From Kineococcus sp. NBC_00420 (GTDB lineage Bacteria > Actinomycetota > Actinomycetes > Actinomycetales > Kineococcaceae), in contig NZ_CP107930.1 of assembly GCF_036021035.1 (NCBI RefSeq), forward strand, positions 2,790,001-2,854,000: 64,000 bases of DNA. Direction: 5' to 3'. Position numbers and translations under genes: made by a program. Position 1 is the stretch's first letter; each line of letters begins with the position of its first letter. This document shows, piece by piece, positions 7,832 through 26,762 of this stretch. Under the pieces are notes generated by a model. The model did not search any database, was not told the origin of the DNA, and saw only the letters and a list, made by a program, of their open reading frames with translations.

Positions 7832-8782
7832 ATGGACTCCCCTCAGGATCGAGTGACCACCATGTCTTCGGTGATCGACGTCGCCAGCAGTGACAGCACC
7901 AGCAGTGACAGCAGCAGCTCGCTCCCCAGCAACTGGGGCCGCTGGGGTGCCGACGACGAACTCGGCACCCTGAACCTGATCACCGACGAGGTCCGCGCGC
8001 GGGCCGTGGCCGAGGCCCGCACCGGCCGGTGGGTGTCACTGGCGATGCCCGTCGACCCGGCCTCGATGCTCGGTGGACCGTTCGCCCCTCCCGCGCCTCC
8101 GTCCCCGCCCGTCCAGCAGGCCCTGCTCTACACCGGTACCCCGCCCATGGGCATGGCTGAACTGCTCGTCCTGAACCCGCACCACCCCGAGCTGACCCAC
8201 CTCGATGCCTTCGCACACATGCCGGTAGACGGACTCGTCTACCCAGGCCGCCCCCTGACCGAAGCCGTGACCGCAGGTGGTGTCGTGCACGGCTCGAGCA
8301 CGGCGTTCGCCGACGGTGTGCTCACCCGAGGGGTGCTGCTCGACCTGGCTCCCGGTGATCGGCTCCCGTCCGCACACCCGATCACCGCCGCCGTCCTCGA
8401 GGCCGCCGAGCTGCGCAGCGGGGTGCACCTGGAGCCCGGCGACGCACTCGTCGTGCGCAGTGGCTGGACATTCTCCTGGGACGGGGAAACCCCGGCACCC
8501 GGCATGACCATGGACGCCGTCACGTGGATGCAGCAGCGCGACGTCTCCCTCTACGCAGGCGACATCAGCGACACCTTCCCGCCGGTGGACCCGCAGGTCC
8601 CGATGCCGCTGCACATGGTCGGATTGACCCGCCTGGGGATGCCGTTGATCGACGGCGTCCAGGTCGATGAGCTGGCCGCGCTGTGCGCCGAACTCGGTCG
8701 CTACGCCTTCCTGCTCACCGTCGCACCGCCTCGACTGCGCGGGGCCACCGGCGTGCCCGTGAACCCCCTTGCGATCTTCTAG
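7832..8782 (+). CDS. Cyclase-family (kynurenine formamidase-like) metal hydrolase
   Basis: Up to 316 residues. ATG at 7832 overlaps the promoter region; the ATG at 7862 (MSSVIDVAS), 12 nt after AGGATCGAG, is the better start on spacing. A low-complexity Ser/Asp linker precedes the domain NWGRWGADDELGTLNLITDE, the signature start of PF04199-type cyclases. The metal-binding segment reads THLDAFAHM, a variant of the family H-x-G-T-H-x-D-x-P-x-H in which the usual proline is replaced. Members hydrolyse amide or lactone bonds; the substrate here is unknown. Control by the divergent MarR is likely. Confidence 0.82.
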   Translation: MDSPQDRVTTMSSVIDVASSDSTSSDSSSSLPSNWGRWGADDELGTLNLITDEVRARAVAEARTGRWVSLAMPVDPASMLGGPFAPPAPPSPPVQQALLYTGTPPMGMAELLVLNPHHPELTHLDAFAHMPVDGLVYPGRPLTEAVTAGGVVHGSSTAFADGVLTRGVLLDLAPGDRLPSAHPITAAVLEAAELRSGVHLEPGDALVVRSGWTFSWDGETPAPGMTMDAVTWMQQRDVSLYAGDISDTFPPVDPQVPMPLHMVGLTRLGMPLIDGVQVDELAALCAELGRYAFLLTVAPPRLRGATGVPVNPLAIF

Positions 8783-8799: not shown

Positions 8800-8813
8800 C
8801 ACGGTCATCCCGC
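8800..8813 (-). repeat. Dispersed repeat, left half-copy interrupted by mobile element
   Basis: CACGGTCATCCCGC, the first 14 positions of the window-wide repeat, stops abruptly where the element end TTATGTGGG begins. The missing remainder, CGCGGTGCGCGCG, is found 2.5 kb away at 11353-11365. Confidence 0.85.
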
Positions 8814-8815
8814 TT

Positions 8816-8829
8816 ATGTGGGTGATCGG
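8816..8829 (+). repeat. Left terminal inverted repeat of twin-recombinase element
   Basis: ATGTGGGTGATCGG, an exact reverse complement of 11334-11347. It ends 12 bp before the stop codon of the distal recombinase, so almost no DNA separates gene and element end. Confidence 0.9.
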
Positions 8830-8840
8830 TGTCAAGGGGG

Positions 8841-10127
8841 TCAGGACGCGGGCTGGTCGAGGCCTCTGAGGAGGCCCGCGAAGAGCTGCTGACGCCCTTG
8901 TTGATCATGTTCGGCGGCGTGGTCGTACTGGGCCTGCAACGTCGGTCGGAAGGCGATCGAGGTCTGGAAGAACGTGCAGGTCTCGCAGACCGACTCGAAG
9001 GTGCAGTCCAGCGCCGGAGGTCGTGTGCAGAAGCCATTGCCCAGCATCCGCTGATGCATCTCGCGGTGCAGGCGGGCCATCTCCGGGCCGGCCGCGGAGG
9101 CCGGCAACGCAGTGTTCTCGCCGTCGAGGTTGTCGGGGTCGTGGGCGGCGTAGAGCGCTTCGACCTTCTCGGTGACGGCGAAGTACTCATCAGCGACGGT
9201 CCGATTCGCGATCTTGGCGTAGCGAAGGGTCATGTCCATCGAGTGATGCCCCAGCAGGGCAGCGATGGCTTCCAAACTCATGCCGCGGTTGATGGCCTGA
9301 GTGGCCAGGGTGTGGCGCATCTGATGGGGGTGGACGTGGCCGATGCCGGCGGCGGTGGCGACGTTGTTCAGGCAGCGGGTGACGCTGTAACGGTCCATGG
9401 GTGTGCCGTTCTCCCGCGGCAGCAGCAGCGGGTGGGCAGGGTCGACGAAGCGGTCACGGTAATCGGCGATGAGCTCGACCAGTTGAGGGTGCAGCGGGAT
9501 GTAGCGATCGTCGAGGAGTTTGCCGACAGGAACGTGCAGCCAGTGCCCAGCCCCGATCTGGCGGACGGCGTCGCGGCGCAGACCGGTGAACTCCCCGACG
9601 CGCAGTCCGGTGCGGATCAGGACCTCGCAGATGACCCGCTCGAGCAGACGCGGTCGGGTCTGCGCGGCGCGCAGGAACTTCGCCGCCGCCGCATCGTCCA
9701 GGGCCTTCGGCAGGGGTTTCTCCTGCCGCGGCAGGTCACCGAAGAGGATGGGAACCGTGGGTGGGGCCTGCGGCCAGTCCCAGTCGCGGATGCGGATGAA
9801 GAAGGTGCGTAGGTTGCCCAGGCGGTGGGCGCGGGTGGCGGCGGTGACGGGTTTCCCGCGCTGGTTGGTGCGGGTGGCCAGCCAGGGCTTGTAGTCCTCG
9901 ATGTGGACGCGACGAACGTCAGCCAAGCGGGTGATCTGAGGGTGTTCCTGGAACATGAACTGGGTGAAGCAGCGCAGCGCTATGTCGGAGTTACGGACAC
10001 TGCCGGAGCGCAAGGTGGTGGCGATCTGCCTCAGGTAGGCGTGCATGGGAACGGTCAGCTCTGTTGCGTCACCCATTGCCTCAGAGTCGATCTCGGCCCA
10101 GCTGAGGAAGCGGTCGGGTTGCTTCAT
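8841..10127 (-). CDS. Tyrosine recombinase B of twin-recombinase element
   Basis: A 428-residue site-specific recombinase. An N-terminal SAM-like core-binding domain (about 28-115) is followed by the catalytic domain with Arg176 (TGLRVGE), Lys203, His268-x-x-Arg271 (HPHQMRH), His294 (LLGHHS) and nucleophile Tyr303 (LRYAK); the whole R-K-H-R-H-Y set is present. After the tyrosine comes an unusual 120-residue tail with four cysteines (367, 375, 381, 384), a likely zinc-binding knob of the kind seen in some transposon recombinases. Its start overlaps the stop of recombinase A (ATGA), implying coupled translation and joint action on the element ends. Confidence 0.93.
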   Translation of the reverse strand: MKQPDRFLSWAEIDSEAMGDATELTVPMHAYLRQIATTLRSGSVRNSDIALRCFTQFMFQEHPQITRLADVRRVHIEDYKPWLATRTNQRGKPVTAATRAHRLGNLRTFFIRIRDWDWPQAPPTVPILFGDLPRQEKPLPKALDDAAAAKFLRAAQTRPRLLERVICEVLIRTGLRVGEFTGLRRDAVRQIGAGHWLHVPVGKLLDDRYIPLHPQLVELIADYRDRFVDPAHPLLLPRENGTPMDRYSVTRCLNNVATAAGIGHVHPHQMRHTLATQAINRGMSLEAIAALLGHHSMDMTLRYAKIANRTVADEYFAVTEKVEALYAAHDPDNLDGENTALPASAAGPEMARLHREMHQRMLGNGFCTRPPALDCTFESVCETCTFFQTSIAFRPTLQAQYDHAAEHDQQGRQQLFAGLLRGLDQPAS

Positions 10128-11275
10128 CGCCGACCTCGCAGTCCCATGACCGTTGACGTGATCGGTGAGATGACCTCGGGAGTGGGTGGAGCAGTGCGGT
10201 GGCCAGCGAACGCTTGAGCATCGATGGCTTCGGCGGCGCGGCGATACTGCCCCGCCAGCCAGTCATCGCCGAGGTGGAGGTAGATGCGGGTGGATTCGAT
10301 GGACGCGTGACCGGCCTGGGCCTGGATCGCTTCCAGGGCCATGCCCGCTTCGCGCAGCCGGGTCAGGCAGGTGTGACGCAACTGATGGCAGGTGACGTGC
10401 GCCAGGCCGGCGCGGCGCCGTGCTCCGTCGAGGACCTCGTCGAGTCCCGAGGCCGACAGTGGGTGCCCGCGGCGGGGACCCTTGAGAACGCAGAAGACGT
10501 GTCCGTGCCCCAACTGGTCGGCTTCGGCTGGGCGTTCGAGGCTGAGGTAGTCGCCGAGATGGGTGAAGAACCGCCTGGAGATCGGGATCTGGCGTTGGTG
10601 TCCGCCTTTGCCTTCGGCGATGAACACCCGCCGTGCCCCGACGTTCAGGTCCTCCAGGCGCAGGCGCAGGACCTCGCAGCGACGCAAACCCCCGAGCAGC
10701 ATCGCGGCGACCATGGCGCGGTCGCGGTGGGTGCGGAGTGCTGTGGTGAGGGCGTCGGCTTCGTCGGGGTTGAGGATGACCGGCAGGGTCCGCGGGGAGC
10801 GGACCAGTGGGGTTCTCGATCCGCGACTGCCGCCAGGCCGGTCGTGGGGCTCGTCGTGTTCGCGCCGTGTCGGCAGGCCGAGGGGGACGGGGTTGGCGGT
10901 GATGTCGCCGCGGGCGAGGAGGAAGGTGTAGAAACCGTTGATGCTGGACAACCGGCGTCGAACGGTGCGGGCACTGACCCCTCCAGCAGCGTCGGCGTCG
11001 GCGACGACGGCGATCACCGGGCCGAGCACTTCCGCTGATCCTGTTCGCTGGGCGGTGATGAAACCCAGCACGTCGGCGGCGGTGACCTCCGCCGGGGTCT
11101 TGGCGATGAGGGTGAAGAAGACCTTCAGGTCGTAGCCGGCGGCCAGGACGCTGTTGGGTCGACAGCGGGCGGTGAGGAAGTCGAGGTAGGCGTCCAGCCA
11201 GGGCTCACCCAGGCGCACGGCGGGCAGTCCGGAGGGCGTTGAACCTTGGGTGAGTCGAAGATCCAGAACGGTCAT
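10124..11275 (-). CDS. Tyrosine recombinase A of twin-recombinase element
   Basis: A 383-residue recombinase, promoter-proximal in the pair. The core-binding domain lies at about 25-125. Catalytic residues: Arg198 (GGLRRCEVLRL), Lys223 (EGKGG), His297-x-x-Arg300 (CHQLRH), His323 (AGHAS) and Tyr332 (TRIYLHLG). It is intact, so both recombinases look active. A Gly/Arg/Pro-rich linker (about 136-162) between the domains is longer than usual. It starts 58 bp inside the right inverted repeat; the promoter must lie in that short end, so the terminal repeat may also control expression. Confidence 0.93.
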   Translation of the reverse strand: MTVLDLRLTQGSTPSGLPAVRLGEPWLDAYLDFLTARCRPNSVLAAGYDLKVFFTLIAKTPAEVTAADVLGFITAQRTGSAEVLGPVIAVVADADAAGGVSARTVRRRLSSINGFYTFLLARGDITANPVPLGLPTRREHDEPHDRPGGSRGSRTPLVRSPRTLPVILNPDEADALTTALRTHRDRAMVAAMLLGGLRRCEVLRLRLEDLNVGARRVFIAEGKGGHQRQIPISRRFFTHLGDYLSLERPAEADQLGHGHVFCVLKGPRRGHPLSASGLDEVLDGARRRAGLAHVTCHQLRHTCLTRLREAGMALEAIQAQAGHASIESTRIYLHLGDDWLAGQYRRAAEAIDAQAFAGHRTAPPTPEVISPITSTVMGLRGRR

Positions 11276-11333
11276 GAGGGTGCCTCCACGCTGAGGACGT
11301 CGAGCCGGTGAGGCTCAGACCGGAGGTTAGCCC

Positions 11334-11347
11334 CCGATCACCCACAT
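11334..11347 (-). repeat. Right terminal inverted repeat of twin-recombinase element
   Basis: CCGATCACCCACAT, perfect complement of 8816-8829. Five bases outside it (ATCAT) the dispersed repeat resumes with CGCGGTGCGCGCG at 11353. Confidence 0.9.
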
Positions 11348-11352
11348 ATCAT

Positions 11353-11394
11353 CGCGGTGCGCGCGAAGCGCACGGTCATCCCGCGGTGAGCGCG
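11353..11394 (-). repeat. Dispersed repeat: second half-copy plus one full copy
   Basis: 11353-11365 completes the copy broken at 8813. After GAAGCG, a second full copy follows at 11371-11394 (CACGGTCATCCCGCGG core). The same two-copy spacing is present, uninterrupted and on the opposite strand, at 25241-25290. Confidence 0.85.
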
Positions 11395-24804: not shown

Positions 24805-25212
24805 TCATTCGGTGACGATGGTGCCCTGGTGGTACAGGACCTGCCAGCCCGTCTCGGCCCGACGCCATGCCGTGACGCGTCGAGTGAGGCGTCGATCCTG
24901 GCGCAGCGTGTAGGTGAGCAGGTAGGTGCTGGAGCCCAGGTCGCGGCAGTGGAAGTTGGAGGTTTCCCACGGGTCGTCTTCGCCTGCGGCGTAGCGGCGT
25001 AACAGGACGTCTTTGACGTAGTGGCGGCTGTAGCAGCGACCCGAGGCGCCGACTTCCCAGAAGTCGGGGGCCATCTGCTGTTCCAGGTCCTCAGCGCTGG
25101 TCCCCAGCTCGGGGCGGTGGAAGATGGGCTCCCGTTCTTGCAGTTCGGCTTGCACCGTCAGGAGGGCTGGTTGGGTGGCGGGAGGCGTCTCGACACTGTC
25201 CACAGCCATCAT
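24805..25212 (-). CDS. DUF4440/NTF2-like protein
   Basis: 135 residues starting at ATG 25212 or 25209; longer frames run into the dispersed repeat and are not credible. NTF2-like cone: LQEREPIFHRPELGTSAEDL, MAPDFWEVGASGRCYSRHYV, and a last strand pair RRVTAWRRAETGWQVLYHQG. This is the DUF4440 pattern (helix, D-F-x-E-x-G, W-x-x-x-x-x-x-W). Such proteins bind or convert small ligands; the ligand here is unknown. Confidence 0.8.
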   Translation of the reverse strand: MMAVDSVETPPATQPALLTVQAELQEREPIFHRPELGTSAEDLEQQMAPDFWEVGASGRCYSRHYVKDVLLRRYAAGEDDPWETSNFHCRDLGSSTYLLTYTLRQDRRLTRRVTAWRRAETGWQVLYHQGTIVTE

Positions 25213-25240
25213 GATCCCGCACGGCCATCGCCAGTCACGC

Positions 25241-25290
25241 GAACAACGCGGGATGACCGTGTGCTTCGCGCGCACCGCGGGATGACCGTG
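25241..25290 (+). repeat. Two-copy dispersed repeat (intact reference for the element insertion site)
   Basis: Copy one is at 25241-25262 (ACGCGGGATGACCGTG), copy two at 25268-25290 (GCGCACCGCGGGATGACCGT), joined by a short spacer containing GCTTCGCGC. Reverse-complemented, it matches the rejoined flanks of the twin-recombinase element at all but two of 45 positions. Confidence 0.9.
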
Positions 25291-25350: not shown

Positions 25351-26184
25351 TTACTGGGGTGCGGGGATCGTCACTGCCTGCAGACGCGGGTCGGTCACGA
25401 TCGCCCGGAGGGCATCTGCCGTGGCCGGTGAGTCCGCCGGGTAGACGCTGTCGACGGGAATGTCGGGAGCAGCGATGGAGGCGACCACGGCGATCTTCCG
25501 GCCATCAGGGAGGTCGAGCGACGCGAACGGTTCGACCGGTCGCGCAGGCTCGGGCATCGACCCCAGCTGCACGAGGGTTTGGCTTGTGCCGACCGTCAGG
25601 AAGCTGCCGTCGGCCAGCGTCTGCTGCGAGCAGGAAGCGGTCTCGTGGCACAGCGCGTCCTTGTCGACCGGCTCGTTCGTAGCGTCCCGGCTCACCTCGA
25701 TCTGGAGGGTGACCGCCGGGGAGGTAGCGGTGCTGGTCGCCTTCCAGTTCACCAGCGTGACGGAAGGCAATCGCCAGCCTTCGACGACACCGCCGGCGGA
25801 CCAACCCGGCAGGTGAGCTTCGACGACGGTGTCCATGGTGTCGGCGGCCGCGGCGGTCACGGCGGGATCGACCTGCACCCCGCCGTGCTCAAGGGTCTTC
25901 AGCGGCGTCGGGGCCGGGTCAGACTGGCCCAGGATGGGACCGGCCACGGACAGGCCCAACGGCGTGGGTTCCAGCAGGTGCGCCCCACCGACGGCCCCGG
26001 CGGTCAACAGAGCAGCGGCCAGGGAGCCGACGCCCCAGCGGGTCCGGCGTTGACGGCGCAGTCGCGTGCGGCCGCGGCCGGTGGCCTCGGCGATGAACGC
26101 GGAGGAGTCCCCCACGGGTCCGGCGGCGGCGTGCAGGTCAGCACGTAGGGCGGCGGGGAAGGGGTCGTGGGTCTCGGTGTTCAC
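25351..26184 (-). CDS. Membrane-anchored anti-sigma-like protein (CU044_5270-like)
   Basis: 277 residues. The GTG at 26184 forms a GTGA overlap with the sigma-factor stop, which decides the start. Basic cytoplasmic N-terminus (RTRLRRQRRTRWG at about 43-55), one membrane helix (VGSLAAALLTAGAVGGAHLL), then a 190-residue extracytoplasmic domain with two cysteines (CHETASC). The architecture and coupling fit the membrane partner of a SigE-type sigma factor, although a zinc anti-sigma motif (HxxxCxxC) is absent. Confidence 0.7.
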   Translation of the reverse strand: MNTETHDPFPAALRADLHAAAGPVGDSSAFIAEATGRGRTRLRRQRRTRWGVGSLAAALLTAGAVGGAHLLEPTPLGLSVAGPILGQSDPAPTPLKTLEHGGVQVDPAVTAAAADTMDTVVEAHLPGWSAGGVVEGWRLPSVTLVNWKATSTATSPAVTLQIEVSRDATNEPVDKDALCHETASCSQQTLADGSFLTVGTSQTLVQLGSMPEPARPVEPFASLDLPDGRKIAVVASIAAPDIPVDSVYPADSPATADALRAIVTDPRLQAVTIPAPQ

Positions 26185-26762
26185 GAGCGGTTCCAATCCA
26201 CGAAAGAGGCAGCAGAGGAGACAGTGGAGGAGGGAGTGTCCGGACTCGACCGGTCCGGCTGAGATCGCTGCTCAGCCGCGAGGTCGGGCAGGGTCTGGCG
26301 CAACCGGACCAGCGCGCGTGAGGCCTGGCTTTTGACGGTGCCGACGCTGATGTCGAGCAGGTCAGCGACCTGTTCGTCGCTGCGGTCGTCGAGGTAGCGC
26401 AGGACGATCACGGCGCGTTGGCGTGGTGGTAGGGGGCGCAGGATGGCGAGGAGGTCGGCGCGTTGTTCGAGGTCGACCAGCGGCTGGGAGGGTTCGGATC
26501 CGGCGAGGTGGTCGTCGACGTCGCGGACGGCTTCGTAGCGGTGTGAGCGGCTGCGCCAGCGTGAGGTGGCGGCGTTGGCTAGGGCGCGGCGGGCGTAGGC
26601 GCTGGGGTCTTGGATGCGTGGCCAGCGGGCGTACATCTTGGCGTAGACGTCTTGGAGGAGGTCTTCACCGATGTGGAAGTCGCCGGCCAGTAGTCGGGCG
26701 ATGCGCCGCAGCTGCGGGGTTGCCTCGTTGGCCCAGGAGGTGAAGTGCTCTTCCCGGTTCAT
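26181..26762 (-). CDS. SigE-family ECF RNA polymerase sigma factor
   Basis: 193 residues from ATG 26762. Region 2 is at about 10-80 (LAGDFHIGEDLLQDVYAKMY, RWPRIQDPSAYARRALANAA), region 4 at about 110-165 (LPPRQRAVIVLRYLDDRSDE, VADLLDISVGTVKSQASRAL). This is the SigE-like actinobacterial subgroup (TIGR02983 type). An unusual 25-residue Ser/Pro/Thr tail follows region 4. Translationally coupled to its presumed membrane regulator. Confidence 0.93.
   Translation of the reverse strand: MNREEHFTSWANEATPQLRRIARLLAGDFHIGEDLLQDVYAKMYARWPRIQDPSAYARRALANAATSRWRSRSHRYEAVRDVDDHLAGSEPSQPLVDLEQRADLLAILRPLPPRQRAVIVLRYLDDRSDEQVADLLDISVGTVKSQASRALVRLRQTLPDLAAEQRSQPDRSSPDTPSSTVSSAASFVDWNRS

Follow-up and report, generated by a model that had tools for sequence, protein, structure and literature searches.

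A two-recombinase transposon of Kineococcus that probably uses a pre-existing REP-like repeat as its attachment site

The window, by which is meant the whole stretch of 64,000 nucleotides that was analysed, carries a compact transposon in which two overlapping tyrosine recombinase genes lie between inverted end repeats (here called arms), each adjoined by an 8-nt spacer (Table 1). Both proteins score above the PF00589 cut-off, the Xer-type NCBIfam models being matched below theirs, and inspection of the translations finds in each of them what we take to be the R, HxxR, GH and Y pattern. The second recombinase gene ends only 12 bp from the 3' arm, and the gene to the left of the element (7832-8782) encodes a protein of 316 aa. 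In agreement with the initial annotation, the element sits within a copy of a short repeat and has CGC at both of its borders.

Table 1. Features of the transposon, of the repeat that it splits and of the unoccupied repeat pair in the same window.
Feature	Coordinates	Strand	Remarks
Transposon	8814..11355	-	2542 bp, assuming strand exchange between spacer positions 1 and 2; the 3-nt core leaves the exact ends ambiguous
Inverted end repeat (arm), 3' end of genes	8815..8829	.	15 bp; TATGTGGGTGATCGG as read on +
Inverted end repeat (arm), 5' end of genes	11334..11348	.	15 bp; CCGATCACCCACATA as read on +
3' spacer	8807..8814	-	AGCGGGAT in gene direction; A element-derived, positions 2-8 repeat-derived
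5' spacer	11349..11356	-	CGCGATGA in gene direction; position 1 repeat-derived, positions 2-8 kept by the element
Core CGC, left border	8811..8813	.	
Core CGC, right border	11353..11355	.	
Split repeat, left part	8800..8813	+	CACGGTCATCCCGC
Split repeat, right part	11356..11388	+	right part from 11356, then a second, intact copy at 11371-11388
First tyrosine recombinase	10124..11275	-	383 aa; PF00589, E 8.2e-33
Second tyrosine recombinase	8841..10127	-	428 aa; 4-bp overlap with the first; PF00589, E 2.7e-25
TTGACA beside 3' arm	8830..8835	-	possible -35 box; a circle junction would put TTGACA upstream of the genes
Two tandem REP-like repeat copies	25241..25290	-	unoccupied candidate attB; units 25244-25261 (1 mismatch) and 25273-25290 (exact)

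Six copies of the element are present in the genome, five of them at 98-100% identity and one (L006) at 82%. The five near-identical copies stand at distant places with different outer flanks, and each is bordered by CACGGTCATCCCGC at one end and by CGCGGTGCGCG at the other, the repeat thus being split at the same base, in the same orientation and with CGC on either side each time. They are also so alike that they may go back to few events. The diverged copy does not split the repeat. It lies outside the repeat at 165441-167898, with one of the near-identical copies (L004) about 1.5 kb away, and a frame change interrupts the second recombinase gene of L006, such that there is no single-frame read-through.

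The repeat itself is a genus-wide feature of high copy number. In the genome, CACGGTCATCCCGCGGTG is matched 265 times with up to 3 mismatches, compared with 6 matches for a control pattern, and the 18-base repeat, at the same tolerance, has 12 matches in the window where 0.44 would be expected, a count reached in none of 100 shuffles. All 10 congeners contain it (12-133 matches, versus 0-2 for the control), and 17 genomes of the order from outside the family have 0-5 matches each. Many copies stand in tandem arrays devoid of element arms, and among the first places listed, exact or near-exact copies crowd near both contig ends (40-430 kb and about 5.35-5.40 Mb). As a short imperfect palindrome in high copy number, with arms GCGCAC and GTGCGC and a weak fold, the repeat is REP-like. 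A role as a hairpin has little support, the folding being modest when set against shuffled sequences (z of -1.25 for one unit and -2.22 for an array piece) and no better than shuffles for the pair of copies at 25241-25290 (+0.71). The REP-associated Y1 transposase (RAYT, PF01797) was found in none of 12 genomes, with 5 of 14 control genomes positive; the window contains no Rfam family at the gathering threshold, and the plasmid records searched yielded no repeat array of the kind seen in this genome.

The first recombinase is not matched at E <= 1e-60 in any of the 10 congeners, and since all 10 contain the repeat, the repeat predates the element. In one of these genomes (G004, contig 33, 3426-3566), a stretch of 47 aa with 64% identity to the first recombinase is perhaps the remnant of a related element.

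The repeat pair at 25241-25290 had been described in the initial annotation as an intact empty site for the element, and the likeness on which that description was built is real. When the flanks of the element are joined (8800-8812, then 11355 onward), the product agrees with the reverse complement of the pair at 43 of 45 positions, a comparison that takes in the spacer separating the two copies of the repeat and has its mismatches at 29 and 45. On the reversed sequence of 424 kb, the best score of this 45-mer is 28/45, so that the match is not due to chance. These 424 kb comprise the window and 18 stretches picked for their richness in the repeat, and in them 29 places score at least 34/45, with four at 45, eight at 44 and three, 25246-25290 among them, at 43, counting overlapping registers of tandem arrays separately and including two places that are element borders. 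Twelve places are therefore closer to the joined site than is 25246-25290, and as a model of attB the pair has no advantage over a dozen other copies. Furthermore, its flanks resemble those of the element loci in the repeat only. The pair lies upstream of, or, if a GTG start is used, within the first part of, the minus-strand frame 24805-25275, and 61 bp separate it from the end of the neighbouring frame (25351-26196). It is a paralogous copy of the repeat at another place, and as such an unoccupied candidate attB rather than the element's own empty site.

An orthologous empty site was sought in other genomes. Searches with the DNA of the left flank and with that of the right flank found none in 19 genomes, the match to the right flank in three congeners starting no nearer than about 720 bp from the insertion, and the joined flanks of two further copies (L002 and L003) found none in 12 genomes each. 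As a protein, the 316-aa product of the left-flank gene has no match at E <= 1e-60 in 11 other genomes, 8 congeners among them. The flank of L002 shares a stretch of 383 bp (94% identity) with another congener (G005, locus L163), but this stops some 50 bp before the insertion is reached, and the sequence beyond it in G005, when read, holds neither a split nor a whole repeat of the right kind. The surroundings of the 383 bp differ between these two species of the genus, which suggests the transfer of a small segment.

Relatives of the element were found at 76 loci in a scan of genome contigs, mostly in Actinomycetota. In a class-level scan, 4 of 394 genomes, the element's own included, match at E <= 1e-60, and among plasmid records 10 match the first protein and 38 the second; a scan of viral contigs with the recombinase gave no relative. 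The ends of the relatives carry no repeat. To compare junctions, the relatives' arms were sought by their likeness to those of the window, and 37 of the 76 loci gave usable end pairs, so that the sample may make any rule look tidier than it is in the family at large. With the six copies of the genome itself and four further loci (L029, L033, L112 and L113), these make up 47 insertions. Left out were two loci with the same flanks as L056 (L057 and L059), two dropped for a contig edge (L063 and L082), one with an irregular 3' end (L036), and those scanned loci at which one or both ends were not found by motif. At L055, L095 and L097, which have several successive 3' arms, the outermost was taken by eye. 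Two or three copies of the 3' arm in succession are in fact seen at the 3' end of four elements, these three and L070, and in Terrabacter sp. Root85 (L037) the 5' end is present twice, about 106 bp apart, as though the start of an older copy had been the target of the element.

Read in the direction of the genes, the 8-nt spacers of the 47 insertions follow a simple pattern. Position 1 is A in 47 of 47 cases at the 3' end and variable at the 5' end (A 18, C 12, G 12, T 5). Positions 2-4, to which CGC (GCG in the direction of the genes) corresponds in the window, agree between the two ends in 45, 47 and 35 of the 47 insertions, the disagreements thus lying at position 4 (12/47) and position 2 (2/47). 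Taken together, this amounts to 127 of 141 comparisons, against a mean of 59.6 and a maximum of 86 in 5000 shuffles, and the excess persists when the five own copies are set aside (112/126; shuffle mean 59.7, maximum 86). Positions 5-8, on the other hand, agree in 41 of 188 comparisons, no more than in shuffles (mean 41.3).

Across the sample, positions 2-8 occur in 18 forms at the 5' end and in 30 at the 3' end. Where copies of one element stand in different targets, the 5' spacer is constant and the 3' spacer varies with the target, the one exception being L060. This is illustrated by five distinct insertions in Mycobacterium sp. SM1, of which four have 5' TGTTTGA and all five differ at the 3' end; L060, from the same genome, has a 5' spacer and arm unlike those of the other copies and resembling an inverted 3' end. 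The core is likewise kept from target to target: TG in all five SM1 insertions, GTG in L078 and L079, and TGC in G414 and Terrabacter. In addition, the two flanks are complementary to one another more often than in shuffles (221/564, mean 174.5, maximum 212; without the own copies 192/504, mean 152.2, maximum 189), from which it follows that targets tend to be imperfect palindromes.

A further regularity is seen near the 3' arm. TTGAC stands 13-18 nt from this arm in 39 of the 47 insertions, the background being 0.013 per 45 nt, and in a circular form of the element it would precede a -10-like hexamer at the 5' end by 17-19 nt. This hexamer, scored as the best of four spacings, is weak (4/6 matches in 19 rows, 3 in 18 and 2 in 2). 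The two motifs hint at a putative circle-junction promoter.

The genes interrupted by relatives were sought at 12 loci by comparing each flank separately with the two proteins of the window. In the 3' flank of seven of them (L056, L058, L060, L061, L062, L072 and L073), tyrosine recombinase coding sequence can be followed as far as the His of LLGH, which is residue 294 in the 428-aa protein, and at L086 as far as the equivalent position in the 383-aa protein, residue 323; we take this His to be catalytic. The pieces at L062 and L073 are 53-56% identical to the 428-aa protein, and the split gene is therefore a relative of the family's own second recombinase. The flanks of L087 and L090 match neither recombinase. 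At L052 the interrupted gene has an rve domain (E 1.5e-25), and at L050 rve_3 only is matched, at E 0.0057 and below the cut-off; the motif split in these transposase cases is presumably typical of IS3.

In a tree of 46 first recombinases (from which L108 was omitted because too little of it matched), the five copies inserted in the REP group together in one clade (support 100/97), sister to L006 with its spacer CTTGA, and both are nested in a clade of 20 rows (100/98) in which the spacers CTTGA and CTTGT prevail. Insertion into recombinase genes requires two changes on this tree and insertion into IS3 one, and all four target groups require four, compared with 14.1 in shuffles, a difference that near-copies help to produce by clustering and in which the group of other targets is a mixed one. 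The small number of changes indicates that the target follows the lineage, and the REP habit with the spacer GCGATGA looks derived.

From these junctions and copies, we consider it likely that the repeat is a pre-existing attB of a two-recombinase transposon, which would circularize with an inherited spacer and be exchanged at spacer position 1/2, with the transfer of one strand suggested. The best reading of the element is accordingly a Tn554-like lineage using a REP-like repeat as attB. In the mechanism envisaged, the element would form a circle in which the arms flank the inherited spacer AGCGATGA. Both recombinases would join this circle to the repeat, exchange taking place between spacer positions 1 and 2 and adjoining a check of homology over 3 nt, with up to three bases of homology next to the cut. 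At the 5' end, target base 1 would then be followed by element bases 2-8, and at the 3' end the A of the element by target bases 2-8. One strand would be exchanged and replication would complete the reaction, as proposed for strand-biased circularizing elements; the constant asymmetry of the junctions, always on the same side, leads us to infer that exchange is perhaps one-stranded in this way, with the spacer inherited.

Extended to the relatives, this would describe a widespread actinobacterial family addressed by its inherited spacer, in which three carried bases must match the target, one strand is exchanged, the spacer travels with the element, and each lineage has a spacer and a target of its own. 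The targets would be REP-like repeats, the codon for the LLGH His in tyrosine recombinase genes (some of them related to the family's own second gene) and an IS3-type transposase gene. We put this forward tentatively, as a possibility short of a probability. Equally tentative is its part on the lineage of the window, in which a spacer change from TGCTTGA to GCGATGA may have accompanied a move to the genus-wide repeat.

The initial annotation had left open whether CGC is a 3-bp duplication or a shared core, and of these the family-wide junctions favour the shared core, sequences alone leaving slight room for a short duplication. CGC is best read as the crossover core rather than as a target duplication, because positions 2-4 agree between the ends throughout the family and the 3' position 1 is invariably A. 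If it were instead a short target site duplication left by a staggered cut, the element merely preferring palindromic, GC-rich sites, a direct repeat of 2-3 bp would be expected and does flank all five near-identical copies, the two ends would likewise co-vary, and the palindromic tendency of the targets would find its place. However, the genes of the element encode tyrosine recombinases, enzymes that do not fill staggered gaps, and the core stays constant from one target to another, as it would if borne by the element, although a target preference could mimic this; the duplication is thus improbable. A more serious competitor, possible if still short of probable, is an ordinary two-strand exchange by tyrosine recombinases over an overlap of 6-8 bp, the mismatches being repaired or segregated later. 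The 8-nt gap between the inverted arms is what classical core sites of these enzymes would fit, and both recombinases look complete. Yet unlike spacers should then segregate both ways, and at the 3' position 1 it is the element's A that is found in every insertion, and at positions 5-8 the two ends agree no more often than in shuffles.

The two remaining explanations concern the repeat rather than the chemistry. That it is part of the element's ends, its many copies being footprints or relics of past insertions, is compatible with the half-repeats attached to every one of the five near-identical copies, but is very hard to reconcile with the presence of the repeat in all congeners, where the element is absent, and its rarity outside the family, with tandem-array copies that lack arms, and with relatives whose ends are free of it; we regard it as highly improbable. 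Least credible of all, to the point of being practically dismissed, is the notion that 25241-25290 is the ancestral empty site and that a segment has been duplicated in the window, one version having the element and the other lacking it: the 43/45 identity and the location of both in one window speak for it, and against it stand the differing flanks, the end of the likeness at the limits of the repeat and the dozen closer places. The reading of the repeat as a pre-existing attB, entered by a circle with an inherited spacer, is the one retained here.

Several known systems resemble the element. Tyrosine recombinase pairs related to Tn554 have been described in Actinobacteria (Van Houdt et al., 2012; PMC3414803), and the passages of that paper considered here portray them, like the present element, as two adjacent genes in the same direction, with several near-identical copies and a site preference. 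The plasmid pREL1 of R. erythropolis PR4 carries such pairs in more than one entry of that paper, and an adjacent pair on it (341 and 611 aa) shows 56.7% and 49.8% identity to the first and second proteins of the window, respectively; this homologous pair is likely to be a pair of PMC3414803. As far as those passages go, the actinobacterial class has one long recombinase of 611-828 aa, whereas the length is 428 aa for the second recombinase of the window and 412 aa in Nocardioides pCHL, and Tn554-related elements have TnpC as a third gene, which is lacking here, although pairs without TnpC are also included. The same passages name neither a REP target nor a junction rule. They also describe RIT elements, which have overlapping tyrosine recombinase genes between inverted end repeats, as does the present element, but three such genes rather than two.

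Compared with the SEs and Tn554, as treated in the parts of PMC10214605 drawn on here, the element shares tyrosine recombinases, target specificity, inverted end motifs and a spacer that is asymmetric at the two ends. In those systems, 6 bp of the old left flank are carried to the new right end, whereas here the 8-nt spacer stays with the element save for position 1. An SE comprises four genes (intA, tfp, intB and srap), and the present element two, without genes for Tfp, Srap or TnpC. SE-6945 is, according to that paper, inserted into insJ of IS3, and a relative of the present element into an IS3-type gene. Strand-biased exchange has been reported for SEs, which are characterized by circles formed with a strand bias and by the lack of a remaining empty site, and the junctions seen here would be compatible with the exchange of one strand; the route of Tn554 transposition is stated there to be unresolved (PMC10214605). 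In this context, the 47 natural insertions define a junction rule by which one-strand exchange becomes testable, and a family that keeps its spacer, with lineages differing in spacer and target, would offer a simple handle on site choice by paired tyrosine recombinases.

The literature, as represented by open PMC papers, yielded no tyrosine recombinase element that targets REPs, and the word 'tyrosine' is absent from PMC1525189. The insertion sequences treated in the passages of that paper used here (Tobes and Pareja; PMC1525189) are like the present element in having several copies, each within a REP at a set place, and belong to IS3, IS110, IS4, IS256 and IS5, in distinction to the tyrosine recombinase type found in the window. 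Insertion into REPs, which those passages describe for DDE and IS110-type insertion sequences, is here the habit of a tyrosine recombinase element.
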